Virus record (IMG/VR): IMGVR_UViG_3300011113_000805
Span: 62,001 to 126,000 of that record
Source: a virus
Length of the DNA: 64,000 nt
Direction: 5' to 3' (one strand)
The notes under the pieces are model-generated. The model made no database searches. It was not told the origin of the DNA and saw only the letters and a list, made by a program, of their open reading frames with translations. This document shows positions 19,741 to 30,847 of this stretch, piece after piece (within the stretch, counting starts at the first letter, position 1; each line of letters begins with the position of its first letter). A program made the position numbers and the translations under genes.

Positions 19741-20538
19741 TCACACCGCGCCGTAGTTGATGACCTCGAAGGAGGCACCGTTATCGAGGCACCACTGGGC
19801 CGTCGCCTGCCACTTCTCGTGATCTACCGATGTCGTGTGACCCTTCACTTCGTAGAGTGTCTTACCATCAAGTGTGAGGAAGTCTGGGATGTAGGTGCGC
19901 TCGACTCCCTTCGGATCGATGTAGGAAATGCGAATGTCGTGCTGCTTCGTGATGGGTAAGCCGGCGCTGATGCAAGAGTCCAGGAATCGTGTCTCCCAGG
20001 AAGAGTGCATATACTCCTCCCTGCCCGTGAATGGGTTGAGCTTCCACTCGGCCCTGTAGGGAGCTTGAGGACCGATCTTTCCCTGTTCGAGGAGGTCAAT
20101 GGCTCGATCTGTCTGGCGCTTTCTCTTCTCTGCCGACTCGGGCTTTTGCCAGTTTTCAGAGTTTGTCTTGGCTGATCGCTTTCTGACTTCGGGTGTTATA
20201 TGTGATCGCATTAATGCAGCTTGTGCTATAGTTTTTTCTTTATTTTCATTGTAATAGCGCTCTAAATTTTGACGATTTTTAGCACCGATCTTGGCCTTAG
20301 ATTCGGCAGTCAAACGACCTTTGATCCTTGCTGAGTGTCCGTGAATGTATCGAAGAAACCTCATACCTTGAGATTTAGAGAAAGGTGCATCTTGACCACA
20401 CCCACACTCACATTTTGGAGGGACACCTCCGTAAAAATGTTTCAATAGATAGCTCTCGTAAGAGAGGCCATGGCATCTGGACACGTGTGAGGCTAAACGC
20501 TCAAATGACTTAAAACAAAGTTTGCATGTAGTTTCCAT
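19741..20538 (-). CDS. Free-standing homing endonuclease, PD-(D/E)XK type
   Basis: A 265-aa protein. The N-terminus has a C2H2-like finger (C5, C8, H18, H23) with the 'SYESYLLKHF' pattern usual in phage homing endonucleases, then a cysteine cluster (C43, C45, C47). A basic helical linker with a NUMOD-like 'KAKIGAKNRQNLERYY' follows. The C-terminal nuclease domain has E182 (SSWETRFLD), P218-D219 and E230-V-K232, the order of PD-(D/E)XK enzymes. It would cut DNA at a target site and spread by repair. It sits between the capsid gene with its terminator and the 150-aa gene. No ribosome-binding site is seen, which suits low expression. The capsid gene is uninterrupted, so this is not an intron ORF. 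Confidence 0.8.
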   Translation of the reverse strand: METTCKLCFKSFERLASHVSRCHGLSYESYLLKHFYGGVPPKCECGCGQDAPFSKSQGMRFLRYIHGHSARIKGRLTAESKAKIGAKNRQNLERYYNENKEKTIAQAALMRSHITPEVRKRSAKTNSENWQKPESAEKRKRQTDRAIDLLEQGKIGPQAPYRAEWKLNPFTGREEYMHSSWETRFLDSCISAGLPITKQHDIRISYIDPKGVERTYIPDFLTLDGKTLYEVKGHTTSVDHEKWQATAQWCLDNGASFEVINYGAV

Positions 20539-20663: not shown

Positions 20664-22589
20664 CTATATTATGTTCATGTCGAGGCAAGTGACCGTGCCA
20701 TAGAAGTCGCTGCGAACCATCTTCTTGCCATAACGAGTCATGACACCCTTACGAGGGGTGAAATCCTCAGGAGCAAAGATGGTGGGAGTGACAATGAGTG
20801 GAACGTAGGGAGCATAGACATATCCGGTCTCCAGGTAGCTGCCGCCCTTGAAGCCGACGAGGATCTTGTTACGGGGGAAGTAAGGATCCTTGTAGACGGT
20901 GAAGCGGTTGCTAAGGGTTCCGATCTTCTCGGCACCAATTGTCATGGGGGTACCAACCTGGCCGCTGCCGTCGATGGAGTAGACGGGCTTGTAGAGCACC
21001 GAAGCCTCCAGGATGGTGGCGACGTCAGGGGAGACCACAATGAAGTTGGCGGAGCCGCGGAGGGTCTTGCGATGGATCTCGTTGGCAACATCGATAATGG
21101 TCTCGGAGAGGGTCTCGTACCACTCACGAACGGTGCCGGTGAAGGCAGGGCCAGGAGTGAGTGTAGATGCACGAGCAACTTCAGCACCAGTCTGCTTGTT
21201 AACAAACTTACCAGGAGCACGAGACCAGAAGAAGTTGGCACCGGTTCCGGTTGTCAACAGGTCATTGAGGATCTCACGGTCCAGCTCTAGAGCAATCTGC
21301 TCGGAGAGGATCTGGGTGAGCTCAACTTCTGCGTCAAGTGAGTGGTAGGCATTGAGGTCCTGGGCAAGCTCAGGTGACCAGCGAGCGCGAAGCTTACGAG
21401 TTGTGGCAACAACCGAGATGGACTCGATCTTGATGTCAATCTCAGGGATCGCAGGTGAAGGCGAAGTGCTGTTGAAATTGGACTCAAAGACTGGAATTGT
21501 CAGTGTTGAACCATCGTTGCCAACATCAAGTGTTGAAGCAATAGGATAGCTAACAAAGAAGTCACCAGGTGCTGTGCCTGCAAGCTTCGTTCCTGAAACA
21601 ATCATTAGCACTGCGGCATTTGTTCCGCTAACAGGTGTAAATCCATTAGCTGTGAAGGTGTTGGTGCCAGAGTCCCAAGTACCAAGCTGGTTGAGGCGGC
21701 GAACGTTAAGAACACCGGTACCACCTTGCACGGCCTGACCTACAGGAGCAACATCGGTGTCAGCATTTGCAGCTCCTGTGAGGAAGAGACCAAACTCCTT
21801 CACCATGGTGGAATCAACATTGCTCTGGAATCCCTTACCGGTGCCGGCATTACCAGCAAACTTTAGAACAACAGCGGTAAACTTACCGGCAGACTGATCA
21901 ATGAGGCTGCTGATTTGTGGGTCGAATTGGAGAAGACGACCATCGGAACCAGATGTTGAAAGAGTTCCTTGAACAAGAGTGGTTCCTGAGCCGTAGGATC
22001 CTGATGCAAGGAATGCGTCAGCGAGAACTGTTGAAATTGCAGATCCACTGTGCACCTTGGAGTAAGCAGTGCCAACGAGGTCGTACTGACCACCGACACC
22101 AAGAGATCCTGACTGAATTCCCTTGCCAGCGGGGTTGTTATAGATGGACTGCCCAACTGAGTACGTACCACGAGCGCCAACAGTTTCGCTACCATCAACA
22201 CCGGTGTTAGCGCCACGGTTATTACCAAAAGTGTAATCCAGGTAGAAAAGGAGACCTGATGGGAGGCTCATAGGCTGAATGGAAACGAGATCGTTGGCAA
22301 CAAGACCACCGAAGACCCTACGAACGATAGGGAATGCGATGTTGGTGAAGCCGCGGATGTCGCCAGAAGAGGAAGAGGTGCCGGCACCATTACCGATGGA
22401 GTTAGCCTCCTTCAGGATCTGGGCAGTCTGGTTCTCCAGGAGGCGAGCCATATTCTCCTTGCGGACACCGTCGAGACCCCTCAGGAGTCCAGTGCGGTTC
22501 CACTTCTCGAGGAGCCTACGTCCCTCGGTGCCAAGATGCCTCTCGCGAATGCCCTCGGCTAGTTGATCTAGTGTAAATGACTTCGACAT
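20664..22589 (-). CDS. Major capsid protein (gp23-like, 641 aa)
   Basis: A 641-aa T4-type major head protein. FTNIAFPIVRRVFGGLVAND and LVSIQPMSLPSGLLFYLDYT (about residues 81-120) are typical of gp23. Near the C-terminus are a SFVVxSP-like 'ANFIVVSPDVATILEAS' and PLIVTPTIFAPEDFTPRKGV. The N-terminal 61 residues are charged and helical, and LKE61-A62 fits the gp21 protease rule (L-x-E before a small residue), so a delta peptide is probably removed during maturation. T4 gp23 is 521 aa; the extra length lies in a Ser/Gly/Thr-rich middle (about residues 120-370), possibly a surface insertion. GGAG ribosome-binding site; strong terminator behind it. Confidence 0.95.
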   Translation of the reverse strand: MSKSFTLDQLAEGIRERHLGTEGRRLLEKWNRTGLLRGLDGVRKENMARLLENQTAQILKEANSIGNGAGTSSSSGDIRGFTNIAFPIVRRVFGGLVANDLVSIQPMSLPSGLLFYLDYTFGNNRGANTGVDGSETVGARGTYSVGQSIYNNPAGKGIQSGSLGVGGQYDLVGTAYSKVHSGSAISTVLADAFLASGSYGSGTTLVQGTLSTSGSDGRLLQFDPQISSLIDQSAGKFTAVVLKFAGNAGTGKGFQSNVDSTMVKEFGLFLTGAANADTDVAPVGQAVQGGTGVLNVRRLNQLGTWDSGTNTFTANGFTPVSGTNAAVLMIVSGTKLAGTAPGDFFVSYPIASTLDVGNDGSTLTIPVFESNFNSTSPSPAIPEIDIKIESISVVATTRKLRARWSPELAQDLNAYHSLDAEVELTQILSEQIALELDREILNDLLTTGTGANFFWSRAPGKFVNKQTGAEVARASTLTPGPAFTGTVREWYETLSETIIDVANEIHRKTLRGSANFIVVSPDVATILEASVLYKPVYSIDGSGQVGTPMTIGAEKIGTLSNRFTVYKDPYFPRNKILVGFKGGSYLETGYVYAPYVPLIVTPTIFAPEDFTPRKGVMTRYGKKMVRSDFYGTVTCLDMNII

Positions 22590-25928: not shown

Positions 25929-26377
25929 CTTCTTGGGCTAATTTTCGAATTCGAGAAGGCAATTGTTGCCCAATTATCTGCGCCTTCAAAAAGGGTAGGA
26001 TCCACACCGGTATCAATGTATGGATTTGTATTCTCATTATTGGCAGCTGAACCGATTCTTTCAACTAATCCGCTAGACGCAGTATCTGCAAATATTTCAG
26101 CCATTATAGCGTTTCCACCGGTAAGTTCTCGATAACTCTCGGCTTTAACCCTAGTGGTCACAGGCTGTTGTGTCTTTGGAACCGAAGCCTTTCGTGAGAC
26201 ACCATTAGGATGAATCAAGTCCAGTGCCGGTCGAGAAATAGTATGCTGAGCCTCTACTGGTGCTCGGCTTCCAGATTTTCTTTCTCTAACACTTTCAACG
26301 ACATTTTTTGGAGATCCCTCAATTATGATCTCAAGAAGACACTCTTTTACCAAGGATTTTAGATCATCTCTTGTCAC
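25925..26377 (-). CDS. Hypothetical head-cluster protein (150 aa, GTG start)
   Basis: A protein of unknown family directly after the prohead protease. I choose GTG at 26377 because GGAGG stands 4 bases before it and the overlap with the protease stop is short (14 bases); a TTG at 26416 would add 13 residues. The start VTRDDLKSLVKECLLEIIIEG is a clear amphipathic helix, followed by a polar, likely flexible body. Possibly a core or protease-associated protein; no direct evidence. Confidence 0.6.
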   Translation of the reverse strand: MTRDDLKSLVKECLLEIIIEGSPKNVVESVRERKSGSRAPVEAQHTISRPALDLIHPNGVSRKASVPKTQQPVTTRVKAESYRELTGGNAIMAEIFADTASSGLVERIGSAANNENTNPYIDTGVDPTLFEGADNWATIAFSNSKISPRR

Positions 26378-28055
26378 TCTTCCTCCACGAAAGTACTTCG
26401 TTGAATACTCTATCAATTCTATCGCTTCGTGTGAAGGTCTTTTTTAGATCATTTTCAGAAACCCTCTTTCCCTCGGCCATCATAAATGCACCTGGTGTCG
26501 ACGGCTCTGCGACAAAGTCCCAGCAGATCAGCTGAAAATCGTCCTGCACAACCTGTGAGTCTCCATCACGTTTTGTAGAACCAACTCCACGTGATGAGAT
26601 TCCAAGTGTGACGCCGGACTCAACAAGGCTCTGAAGAATCTTGCCCATTGGGGTGTCCAAGATTTCCACAGTACCATAACAAACATTTCCTTCCAACCAG
26701 GCTTCACGAATAATGTGACTCACTTTTTTCAGTTCAACAACAGACGAGTCTGGGTGGTCACAGTTTCCTGTCCATACGACTCTTTCATTTTGCCTCATAA
26801 GCCATGTTCCGTTCTTGACATTAACGCAATACACAGGACCATCATATTCAATTTCATCAATTTTCATAAACCTTAGATCAGATGAAACTGCATTTGATGT
26901 ATGCATATACACAATATGCATATCAGATTGGTTTTCAGCTAGAATCACTCGTCCAGGATCAGGTGAAATTCTTTCATAGGGCTTTCTAACTCTAATTGTT
27001 GAAGCATGCCCTAGTTTAAGCATGACCTCTTGAACATCATTTGCCAATCGTCTTGATGAGGTTGCATATTCAATTGCACCATTTTTCCTATGAAGACCAT
27101 CACCATACAGCATCCATTCTAACAATATTGATAAAAGCCTTGGAGACCAATTTTTTGCATAATCAGGAATGAACTTTTCTCGAGATCCGCCTAACTGAAC
27201 TAAATGTGAGTGAAGTTCTGAATTTCTAATACAGAAATCAAATCTCTTCTCTAAAGACTCCTTAGTTGTAAAATTCCATGGAAGCTGCTGCATAAGATTC
27301 ATAATCTTGTTTGCAGTTTCACCTGAATTTTGTGTGATTACAACATTATGATATGCCTGCCTATATGACTTATACACACCACTTGAATGACCTTCAGCCA
27401 AGTATATTCCTAAAAAGGCTGCCCAAAGTTGTGAATCGATTTCCTTACCATCAATCAAAAATGTTTCAGGATCTTCACCCTTCCAGTTTGTGAATGCTCG
27501 CTTAAATGCACTATGACTTATCCATGATCTTTTAGTTTTATTTGTGCCTCTGGCAATATCAAGCAGTTCAGTAGATGAAATTTTGTATGGAATATTTTTT
27601 CTGTCCCAAAGAACATGATTGTGACTTGGTGTTACAACCATGTTATAGGTCGAGTGATTGTGAATTTTGTGTAACTTTCCTGAAAATTGAATTTCAATTT
27701 TTTGATCAATTGCCTGATATTCAGTTTCACCGGTACTCAAATTACAAGTTGCAATAATCTCATTATCATCGATGTTTTCTATCTTTTTCCATCCTGAAAG
27801 AGTAAGAATCTCTGTGCCAGGCGGAACACACTCTCCTAAGGCCCTATTTTCTCTAATGAACTTTTGATAGTTTCTAACTTCTCTCTCAAGAATACTAAGT
27901 GGATAGACACGACCATTCTGATTGAGAGTCTCAGCCTTCTGGAGGATTCCTTTCATGATAACTTTTCCACCGTTTCTATCACGGCTTTCCTTAACCATTT
28001 CAGGTGTATATGAAAATGCCGTCCATTCGGTAAGAAGCTTTTTGTCACTTGACAT
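26364..28055 (-). CDS. Prohead protease (gp21-like) interrupted by an intein
   Basis: The frame encodes 563 aa from the ATG at 28055 (GGAGG 6 bases away). Residues 1-75 and the last 132 form a T4 gp21-type prohead serine protease: NQNGRVYPLSILEREV, then DHPDSSVVELKKVSHIIREA with the catalytic His, then LGISSRGVGS with the presumed catalytic Ser region. Between GE (residue 75) and CDHP lies a 356-aa intein. After splicing the protease would be 207 aa, very close to T4 gp21 (212 aa). It cleaves scaffold and capsid proteins inside the prohead, so the enzyme is inactive until the intein is removed. It overlaps its upstream neighbour by 11 bases. Confidence 0.92.
   Translation of the reverse strand: MSSDKKLLTEWTAFSYTPEMVKESRDRNGGKVIMKGILQKAETLNQNGRVYPLSILEREVRNYQKFIRENRALGECVPPGTEILTLSGWKKIENIDDNEIIATCNLSTGETEYQAIDQKIEIQFSGKLHKIHNHSTYNMVVTPSHNHVLWDRKNIPYKISSTELLDIARGTNKTKRSWISHSAFKRAFTNWKGEDPETFLIDGKEIDSQLWAAFLGIYLAEGHSSGVYKSYRQAYHNVVITQNSGETANKIMNLMQQLPWNFTTKESLEKRFDFCIRNSELHSHLVQLGGSREKFIPDYAKNWSPRLLSILLEWMLYGDGLHRKNGAIEYATSSRRLANDVQEVMLKLGHASTIRVRKPYERISPDPGRVILAENQSDMHIVYMHTSNAVSSDLRFMKIDEIEYDGPVYCVNVKNGTWLMRQNERVVWTGNCDHPDSSVVELKKVSHIIREAWLEGNVCYGTVEILDTPMGKILQSLVESGVTLGISSRGVGSTKRDGDSQVVQDDFQLICWDFVAEPSTPGAFMMAEGKRVSENDLKKTFTRSDRIDRVFNEVLSWRKSDKR
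26763..27830 (-). mobile_element. LAGLIDADG intein in the prohead protease gene
   Basis: 356 codons in frame. The first residue is Cys (CVPPGTEILTLSGWKKIENI, block A), block B is VVTPSHNHVLW with T-x-x-H, and the C-terminus has VYCVNVKNGTWLM (block F) and VVWTGN followed by Cys +1. The last residue is Asn, but the usual penultimate His is Gly. Two LAGLIDADG motifs are visible: FLGIYLAEG (intein residues about 139-147) and LLEWMLYGDG (about 236-245), both keeping the acidic residue, so the homing endonuclease may be active. The insertion point is two residues before the catalytic DHP. The DNA is visibly richer in A+T than the protease parts, suggesting separate origin. Confidence 0.93.
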
Positions 28056-28890
28056 CTTTTTCCTCCACTTCAGCAATAAGTTTAATCAATGTAAGGTAAC
28101 GGGAGAGGTCACCTTCTTGAATTTTTTCTTCTGGTAACTGTTCAATTTCACGCTTGACAGGATCAACCTTTTCAGTGATGACCTTGTCTCCTCTTTCACT
28201 TCGAAGAACCTGCATTGCCTTTACGGCCCGTTCCTTGATAGACTTGCATGACTCTACAAGCTGTCCTGTTTCACCTCGGGTAGCAGCCTTGACATATGTG
28301 TTTATCAATGAAATCTGTTCAGGATTCAGTGTGTTAGAATACTTTCTCTCAAGCTTCTCCTGCATTAGCTTCAATGAGAGCGAAGTGACCTCAGGTTTCT
28401 TGATAATAGGTGATGCCACTTCCTTGTGTGTCAAATACTCGACAACGCGGGACTCATGAAGGGCAGTCTCAGGTGTTGTGACACCTGTTGTTGATCTCCA
28501 TGTGTTTAGAAGTGTTTGTACGGTAGCAAGTTTCCTGTAGTTAGGAATTCTCATATCGAAAAAACCTGGAAAATCCAGCTTCTTATTGATGCTTTTGATT
28601 AGCAGGCTCTTCTCGTTATCAAGCCGCCTTGCATCATGTCCTATTGCCGCTGTTTTAGCCTCATCGAGGATTCTAATTGCAAGTGGCTCACTTCCTACAT
28701 GCGTCTGTACTAGTGCATTAAAGAGTCGAAACTCCTTATAAAGCTCTGTCCCAGGCTTGAAGTGATCATTCATGATTCCCATGGCGATCTCAGCCCTGTC
28801 CGATCTTCCCTCAAGAATACACTTAGAGGTATATCGGATAAGCTGCTCATAGATCAGACCGACATTCCTTTTCTTATTGTGACTACTCAT
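28045..28890 (-). CDS. Conserved T4-like head-cluster protein between portal and protease (281 aa)
   Basis: A helical protein of 281 aa from MSSHNKKRN; the ATG overlaps the portal stop as ATGAGTAG. The pattern VGLIYEQLIRYTSKCILEG followed by HFKPGTELYKEFRLFNALV is one I recognise from proteins next to the portal in large T4-like phages, where it is usually listed as hypothetical or as a prohead core component. The function is not known to me. Tight coupling to portal and protease suggests a role in prohead assembly. Confidence 0.75.
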   Translation of the reverse strand: MSSHNKKRNVGLIYEQLIRYTSKCILEGRSDRAEIAMGIMNDHFKPGTELYKEFRLFNALVQTHVGSEPLAIRILDEAKTAAIGHDARRLDNEKSLLIKSINKKLDFPGFFDMRIPNYRKLATVQTLLNTWRSTTGVTTPETALHESRVVEYLTHKEVASPIIKKPEVTSLSLKLMQEKLERKYSNTLNPEQISLINTYVKAATRGETGQLVESCKSIKERAVKAMQVLRSERGDKVITEKVDPVKREIEQLPEEKIQEGDLSRYLTLIKLIAEVEEKDVK

Positions 28891-30847
28891 CGTCGGACTC
28901 TCCATCAAGGTTTATATCGAGCTTCTCGCGAAGTATTGACTTTTCAGTCTTCACTGTATTTATGCTCTTGCTGAGAAGACTTAGGACAGATTTCATCTCA
29001 GGTGTATTTTTAGGTGTTGGTGACTCACCAAACATTGCTCTTGACAGAGAAAGATCATTTTCCCAGATCTCCCTGTTCATTCTTGACCTACCATATGGGT
29101 CATTAGAAGTCGATTGTTTATGACTGTCTGTTGTCATTACTAGAAAGTCAGGTACCTCTGCCTTCGCGTTTGAAGAACGTGATGGTTTCTTTCTCCTCTT
29201 GCCTCCAAAGACATTCTTTGACTCGGAAGAAGGCTTAATCGGGAAATCATCGACCTCACCAAGAATGGGGCCGGCCTTAAAGTCACCTGAGAAGAGATCT
29301 TCTTCACCGCCGGTATTGGATTCTCCTGCATCATCACCACCGGCCGGAGGTGTCGGCTCATCACCGGCGCCGCCGGCGCCTCCAAATAAGTCTTCACCGC
29401 CTCCTCCGCCTCCTCCAGCTCCGGCACCTCCGCCACCATCAGGTGATTCGGCGGTTGCAGCTGCCTCAACTTCAGCGTCCTCCTTCTTGTCTACCTTACG
29501 ACCTTCCTTTATGGACTCAATCTCTTCATCGGTAAGACCAAGAATGTTCTTTCGAATCCACTTTCTATCGACAGCACCCTCAGGTGCAGAACCTGCAATG
29601 TCGAACTTTGTCTTGATGAGCTCAAGTTTTTGCAACTGTGCCACAGAAGATGGATTGTTTAAGCTAAGGTGAAAGTTGAGAAGATCATCGTCAGTAAAAC
29701 CGTGCGAGTAAAGATGGATCATTGCCATCTTGTTAAGCTCTGAGATGATAACTTTCTGAATGCGGGTTATTGTTCTAGAGAACCTGATGTCCTCTTGTGC
29801 CAGAGTCGCCTTTGCCCCAATCTCCTCATCATATCCAAGATATGCTTTAGGAATCTTTAAGGCAGCAAAGAGCTTCTTTTGAATATACTGCACATCCTCT
29901 ACAGCTGCAGCATTCTGTCCACCGGCAAGTGTCTCAATTTTTGTTCCTGATTCACCACCACGAACAGGAATAAAATAGTCATCATCAACAGCAAGAGGAT
30001 TATACCTGAGATCGAGTCTCCCCGTATTCTGGTCAATGGCTTTGTTCCTCTTCAGGCTTGTCTGGGCTTGCTGCATGTAAGTTTCAATGTCCTCAGGCGG
30101 AACATTTCCAACATCGATATAGAAAATTCTACGCTCCGGTGCCCTAACGATACGATAGACAAGCATTGCATCTTCAATTAGGATAAGCTGACGCCAGATT
30201 CGCCTTGCTGACTCAAGAACAGAAGCACCGTATGGAAGGAATGCATCATTTCCAAGAAGTCGGAAATGAGTTACCTGCCAATTCTCAAGGACCGTGTTTC
30301 CTCTTGTGATCCAACGAAAGCGAACCGCCATTGGATCCTTAGGATCATATCCTTCTTCCCGCTCAATTTCTGCAATGGGAATAGGATAAGCATTTAGAAC
30401 GCCATACTTTGGATCCACATCATTAAAAAGAAAGAAATCACCATACTTGCAGAGATTTCGAACCCACATTGGTAAGTTAAAATTAACATTGAGAATATCA
30501 TCGAAGAGATTCGTCAATAGTTCCAAAATTGCTCTGTTCTCAGAATAGACATGCAAGACCCTTCCTGAGTCATCCTGTGATGCAGTTTCCTCAGCATAAA
30601 TGTCAAGTGCAGATGCAATTTCTGGTGTTGCCTCCATCTCCGAGAAGTCAGAGTACCTTGACATTCTGTCATATGCACCGTATGCCGAAACTGTGCTTGC
30701 ATAAACATCCGAGACATTTCTACGAAAAAGCTCATATGCAGAAGATGCAGTCGGTGTTGATTCGCCCTTTACTTTTCTCCTTACGACAGGACCACTCCTA
30801 AAGAGCTTCGTCAATCGTGAGAAAAGATTTCCCTGTGGTTTTGCCAA
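28883..30847 (-). CDS. Portal protein (gp20-like, 654 aa)
   Basis: A T4-type portal. N-terminal SDFSEMEATPEIASALDIYA, then LWVRNLCKYGDFFLFNDVDP-like sequence around residues 125-145, RAPERRIFYIDVGNVPPED (about 238-256) and KLFAALKIPKAYLGYDEE (about 328-345) are classic gp20 motifs. It forms the dodecameric ring for DNA entry and docks terminase. It is longer than T4 gp20 (524 aa) because of a C-terminal Gly/Ala/Asp-rich linker (about residues 465-525, with two EDLF motifs) and a charged tail. The start codon is TTG with AAGGAG 7 bases away. A CTAAATAGATA element lies 25 bases upstream. Confidence 0.95.
   Translation of the reverse strand: MAKPQGNLFSRLTKLFRSGPVVRRKVKGESTPTASSAYELFRRNVSDVYASTVSAYGAYDRMSRYSDFSEMEATPEIASALDIYAEETASQDDSGRVLHVYSENRAILELLTNLFDDILNVNFNLPMWVRNLCKYGDFFLFNDVDPKYGVLNAYPIPIAEIEREEGYDPKDPMAVRFRWITRGNTVLENWQVTHFRLLGNDAFLPYGASVLESARRIWRQLILIEDAMLVYRIVRAPERRIFYIDVGNVPPEDIETYMQQAQTSLKRNKAIDQNTGRLDLRYNPLAVDDDYFIPVRGGESGTKIETLAGGQNAAAVEDVQYIQKKLFAALKIPKAYLGYDEEIGAKATLAQEDIRFSRTITRIQKVIISELNKMAMIHLYSHGFTDDDLLNFHLSLNNPSSVAQLQKLELIKTKFDIAGSAPEGAVDRKWIRKNILGLTDEEIESIKEGRKVDKKEDAEVEAAATAESPDGGGGAGAGGGGGGGEDLFGGAGGAGDEPTPPAGGDDAGESNTGGEEDLFSGDFKAGPILGEVDDFPIKPSSESKNVFGGKRRKKPSRSSNAKAEVPDFLVMTTDSHKQSTSNDPYGRSRMNREIWENDLSLSRAMFGESPTPKNTPEMKSVLSLLSKSINTVKTEKSILREKLDINLDGESDDE

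Follow-up and report, generated by a model that had tools for sequence, protein, structure and literature searches.

In the 64,000-nucleotide stretch of viral DNA analyzed here (the window), the gene for a gp21-like (peptidase S77) prohead protease is interrupted in frame by an insert at its catalytic center. The question raised by this locus is whether the insert is a working intein and whether it serves the phage as a timer of head maturation or is kept as a selfish homing element. Relatives of the insert were found at three spots around the catalytic histidine in many environmental phages, and for this reason the insertion is judged genuine and resembles a case of selfish homing more than a timer built into the phage.

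The precursor of 563 aa is encoded at 26364..28055 on the minus strand, with the ATG at 28055, the stop codon at 26364-26366, and a GGAGG ribosome-binding site (28062..28066, minus strand) 6 nt upstream of the ATG. The gene lies between those for a gp20-like portal protein (28883..30847, minus strand) and a gp23-like major capsid protein (20664..22589, minus strand), which is the normal T4-like order. The nearest sequenced phages are distant, and the terminase is ~40% identical to those of Flavobacterium, Microcystis, and huge phages. The reading frame is open across both flanks of the intein. These flanks match Pfam PF03420 (S77) with an E-value of 5e-21 and PHROG 207 (gp21) with an E-value of 4e-47, in two stretches. 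The N-extein (27831..28055, minus strand; residues 1-75) ends in ENRALGE, and the C-extein (26367..26762, minus strand; residues 432-563) begins with C-D-H-P. When the flanks are joined, an intact gp21 of 207 aa is obtained.

The catalytic residues were located by alignment with T4 gp21, in which His85 is found in GELNHPP and Ser140 in GVSSRG. The sequence of structure 5JBL reads GELNAPP and GVASRG at these places. Since both residues are alanine in the crystallized protein, His85 and Ser140 are regarded as the catalytic pair from a comparison of the two sequences. They align with His434 (26754..26756, minus strand) and Ser487 (26595..26597, minus strand) of the precursor, and an intein-free relative of the window gp21 matches structure 5JBL. 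On these alignments the catalytic assignment holds, and the DHP and SSRG motifs, the PF03420 match, and the nearby gp20 and gp23 genes place the protein within S77.

An earlier sequence-only reading of the window had proposed a 356-aa LAGLIDADG intein directly before C-DHP, two residues from the catalytic histidine. The coordinates of this intein (26763..27830, minus strand; Cys76-Asn431, between Glu75 and Cys432) proved to be exact, and only Cys432 (26760..26762, minus strand) and Asp433 lie between the junction and His434. The host gene, the motifs, and the position at the catalytic site had also been assigned correctly. Of the masses given in that reading, the 23 kDa of the spliced protease agrees with a computed value of 23.5 kDa, and the 62 kDa of the precursor is to be replaced by 64.5 kDa. 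The mass computed for the intein is 41 kDa.

Class 1 inteins carry Cys or Ser as residue 1, a TxxH motif in block B, a terminal Asn, and Cys, Ser, or Thr at the +1 position. A penultimate His in block G is usual and is not required. The window intein has Cys76 as residue 1 and predicted splicing nucleophile (27828..27830, minus strand), T-P-S-H in block B, a terminal Asn431, and Cys432 at +1. Cys1 is present in 54 of 54 distinct relatives. Block G reads WTGN, with Gly430 in the penultimate position before Asn431 (26763..26768, minus strand), so that the Gly-Asn end had been read correctly. There is no His in block F or block G. The insert matches LAGLIDADG_3 (PF14528) with an E-value of 3e-9. 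The homing endonuclease domain extends approximately over 26976..27443 (minus strand), and two LAGLIDADG helices with acidic residues, GIYLAEG and WMLYGDG, contain the catalytic acids Glu221 (LAEG; 27393-27395, minus strand) and Asp319 (YGDG; 27099-27101, minus strand). The window intein scores below the cut-offs of Pfam Intein_splicing and NCBIfam intein_Nterm; the relatives L069 and L075 at the same site pass the NCBIfam intein_Nterm cut-off, from residue 1. The insert is confirmed as a class 1-type LAGLIDADG intein in gp21.

Class 3 inteins are marked by Trp-Cys-Thr at B:12, F:4, and G:5 and have no nucleophile at position 1. Assignment to this class was considered, with Cys at F:4 and Thr at G:5 present, and was rejected because Cys1 is present and B:12 is His rather than Trp. 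Most of the gp21 inteins combine the class 1 Cys1 with two class 3 markers out of three, namely Cys at F:4 and Thr or Ser at G:5.

The AF2 model of the intein, made from a 30-sequence alignment, has the HINT fold with a pLDDT of 94 and a pTM of 0.91. The best PDB matches identified with Foldseek were TliVMA (3e-16), PI-SceI (1e-15), and PI-PfuI (7e-13), and the middle (endonuclease) part of the model matches I-DmoI. Both TliVMA (7QSU) and PI-SceI (1VDE) likewise combine a HINT domain with a nested LAGLIDADG endonuclease, but they are 10-14% identical to the window intein and their hosts are V-ATPases. The alignment for the precursor model left out one row from the phage collection. In the fold search with this model the matches were inteins, with none to the protease part among the matches listed.

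Empty sites were identified in approximately 40 IMG/VR relatives that cover query residues 1-563 in ~620 bp and are hence intein-free. Their junction reads mostly NRALGE-CDHPD and in some cases GELDHPD, and the exteins of the nearest ones are 89-92% identical to those of the window. Alignment with intein-free gp21 places the empty site, GE-CDHPD, at the exact junction foreseen from the sequence alone. Because the empty alleles already carry the cysteine, the +1 Cys need not have arrived with the intein. The empty-site pattern GECDHP[D/E] occurs in at least 75 gp21 contigs (75 of the 80 loci listed were recognized as gp21).

No relatives were detected when viral contigs were scanned with just the intein of the window. 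Relatives were reached using a profile of five gp21 inteins, which detected them in 203 IMG/VR stretches, with 80 loci listed. When these loci and four further sequences are taken together, 66 of the 84 intein ORFs are gp21-type proteases. The profile search and a pattern scan for the window's site yielded at least 69 distinct gp21 inteins, almost all from metagenomic assemblies. Three insertion points are used, all within five codons of the catalytic histidine. With a slash for the point of insertion, these are site A (GE/C-D-H-P, the site of the window intein), site B (D-H-P-x/S), and site C (G-H-P/C).

The pattern GGNAAYTGYGAYCAYCCNGAYTC recovered a single contig because the serine and the penultimate codons vary. 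The pattern T-x-N-CDHP recovered 29 occupied site A contigs, 5 of them without an endonuclease. Site A is found in three states: vacant, filled by an intein with an endonuclease, or filled by an endonuclease-less mini-intein. The five mini-inteins (L061, L149, L155, L159, and L178) are 145-171 aa in length and fall near different full-length inteins; the endonuclease was lost at least three times at this site, probably five.

Of the 1136 records of sequenced phages that match gp21, just three have a single place with query coverage of 80% or more. All three, two of which are the same phage, hold site B inteins and belong to LR756508 and a Nitratidesulfovibrio/Desulfovibrio phage. The inteins of the Nitratidesulfovibrio phage SRB7757 and the huge phage LR756508 share the S77 host and the Gly-Asn end with the window intein. 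They differ from it in their insertion after HPx, are 27-30% identical to it, and lie in records without annotation. The earlier statement that few inteins are known in prohead proteases thus stands for the literature and for sequenced isolates (3 of 1136) and fails for environmental phages, which hold dozens. The gp21 intein is a hotspot and not a singleton.

The history of the intein differs from that of its host gene. The nearest intein found, that of L069 among the matches listed, is 49% identical to the window intein, although an empty allele exists that shares 92% identity with the host gene. The GC content of the intein is 0.36 versus 0.447 for the window, and less than 1% of stretches of the same size are as low. 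The intein and extein trees disagree. The site A label requires only 4 changes on the intein tree. The hosts are spread over the extein (protease) tree, where the label requires 9 changes, which is not below the chance level given by shuffled labels. At site B, the inteins of L115 and L118 are 95% identical and their exteins 58%, which makes a strong case, on sequence comparison, for recent transfer. Horizontal spread of this kind is consistent with cleavage of empty alleles by the endonuclease. The dN/dS values, where estimable, are ~0.05-0.3 in the splicing and endonuclease parts and indicate that both are under purifying selection. A model of the homing cycle (PMC8966425) predicts that empty, invading, and endonuclease-less states coexist, and their occurrence at the one codon of site A fits this prediction.

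The insert is very probably a LAGLIDADG homing intein of gp21, placed immediately ahead of the codon for a cysteine that the host protein already had, and maintained mainly as a selfish element. It is a real homing intein and probably active. The precursor would be translated whole, and the intein would excise itself through attack by Cys76, transfer to Cys432, and cyclization of Asn431. The exteins would be rejoined to the 207-aa protease, which would then act in head maturation. The endonuclease would cut intein-free gp21 at the highly conserved DNA of the catalytic site, and the intein would be copied in. Such a selfish element may be tolerated by an essential gene because splicing restores the active site.

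Co-option of the intein as a timer, by which slow or conditional splicing would keep the protease inactive during prohead assembly, is improbable, although the insertion adjoins the catalytic histidine. Both halves of the catalytic loop (residues 69-74 and 434-443) have pLDDT values below 50 in the model of the precursor. The protease would probably need splicing to be active; this is a sound inference, to which the predicted disorder at the junction lends a little weight. A timer would also be compatible with the persistence of endonuclease-less mini-inteins at the same site. The nearest idea in the literature consulted is regulated head morphogenesis, which others have suggested for the intein in the F (head assembly; Mu gp30) gene of a Methylococcus Mu-like prophage (PMC517821). 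That intein shares with the window intein a host gene of phage head morphogenesis but has no endonuclease, and its host is not a protease. The presence of gp21 inteins is, however, sporadic, with close relatives being intein-free, and this distribution speaks against a timer that the phage needs. The conservation of the endonuclease residues, together with horizontal spread, accounts for the presence of the intein without any benefit to the phage.

The timing idea had been drawn from the Gly-Asn end, which, it was proposed, can slow splicing and might delay the protease, and it is not borne out. A penultimate Gly is the norm of the family, being found in 52 of 69 gp21 inteins among the matches listed, without exception in the 44 that occupy sites B and C. 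The penultimate residues at site A are His (12), Gly (8), Lys (2), Leu (2), and Ser (1). The RDF intein of mycobacteriophage Bethlehem resembles the window intein in its Gly-Asn end and its endonuclease domain, though its host protein is a different one. Complete splicing was demonstrated for this intein with its native penultimate Gly, and the Gly-to-His variant required >5 h to reach ~50% (PMC5050341). Since the native Gly-Asn end splices fully in this one tested phage intein and the change to His slows it, slow splicing cannot be read from a Gly-Asn end.

A dead or partly dead intein, which would leave the precursor unspliced or only cleaved and the phage defective, is very unlikely. The atypical blocks F and G, which lack His, and the weak scores to general intein models would agree with such a state. 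The frame and the catalytic residues of both parts are nevertheless intact, the family is under strong purifying selection with the splicing parts included, and the 257-kb record contains no gp21 match other than this ORF. An assembly chimera, with an unrelated intein gene misjoined into gp21, is scarcely credible despite the metagenomic origin of the contig and a GC content unlike the surroundings, because the identical codon is occupied in 29 contigs; the insert is also in frame at exact splice junctions and the gene order is normal.

The selfish homing intein is the preferred reading, and the intein tree bears on how its insertion point is chosen. The site B inteins L073 and L077 are nested in the site A clade, and L077 groups with the window intein and L069 with a support of 99/92. 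Two site B inteins within the site A clade suggest that the insertion point shifted by five codons. Forcing the site A inteins (without L092) into one clade was rejected with a p value of 0.017, which amounts to moderate evidence because the group was partly named after the tree had been seen. The splicing domain alone is short and leaves these branches unsettled. L092 is a separate site A intein within a site B clade. The residue two before the catalytic histidine is Cys or Ser in every site A host. In the site B hosts that were scored, this position is always Leu, Ala, Ile, or Asn, and HPx is followed by Ser or Cys. The Cys/Ser pattern is partly forced by splicing chemistry, but the absence of Cys or Ser at position A in site B hosts is not. 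On balance, we favor the view that in environmental T4-like phages the catalytic-His motif of S77 prohead proteases serves generally as an intein hotspot and that one lineage moved between points five codons apart, inserting before C-DHP in hosts with Cys or Ser at that place and after DHPx otherwise. If this is correct, the insertion point would be set by the endonuclease target region and the available nucleophile, rather than being fixed as it is usually treated.

The LAGLIDADG inteins of mycobacteriophage TerL resemble the window intein in that an endonuclease-bearing intein occupies a conserved site in a phage packaging gene, and intein-free TerL alleles are cut by the endonuclease (PMC5050341). 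The host of these inteins is a terminase and not an S77 protease, and splicing and cleavage have been tested in TerL, whereas the window intein is known from its sequence. No report of an intein in an S77 protease was found in the open literature consulted. Against that literature, the gp21/S77 protease is a new intein host gene and a rich hotspot, with an element that is itself of known kind. An essential head-maturation protease joins the intein host genes, and the empty, invading, and endonuclease-less states share one codon in it. The penultimate residue varies naturally among His, Gly, Lys, Leu, and Ser. Direct tests of the homing cycle, of how an insertion point shifts, and of whether inteins ever act as switches thus become feasible in a single small protein whose activity is easily read out. 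For annotators, intein-bearing gp21 genes resemble 550-650-aa proteins of unclear function.

Other inteins of the same virus were found by the family search. Outside the window, a ribonucleotide reductase gene (L062, G000:C1:45500-51500) contains one intact mini-intein. The same gene has a second intein whose halves are parted by a free-standing endonuclease ORF, as in the "fractured gene" arrangement of split inteins. A DNA polymerase III alpha gene (L063, G000:C1:27000-32500), also outside the window, is split, with an N-terminal intein half ending a 979-aa ORF, followed by an endonuclease ORF and by a C-terminal half that opens the rest of the gene; this is a candidate split intein. EBPR siphovirus 2 has a related Gly-Asn intein in a methylase (L047, 2309-4669), and Synechococcus phage B23 has one in a gene resembling T4 gp55 (L050, 2291-3805), both in records without intein annotation. 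Within the window, a 265-aa endonuclease ORF (19741-20538, minus strand; TnsA-like N domain, PHROG endonucleases) lies directly downstream of the capsid gene and is likely a free-standing homing endonuclease. A similar endonuclease ORF is found in the same place in L061.
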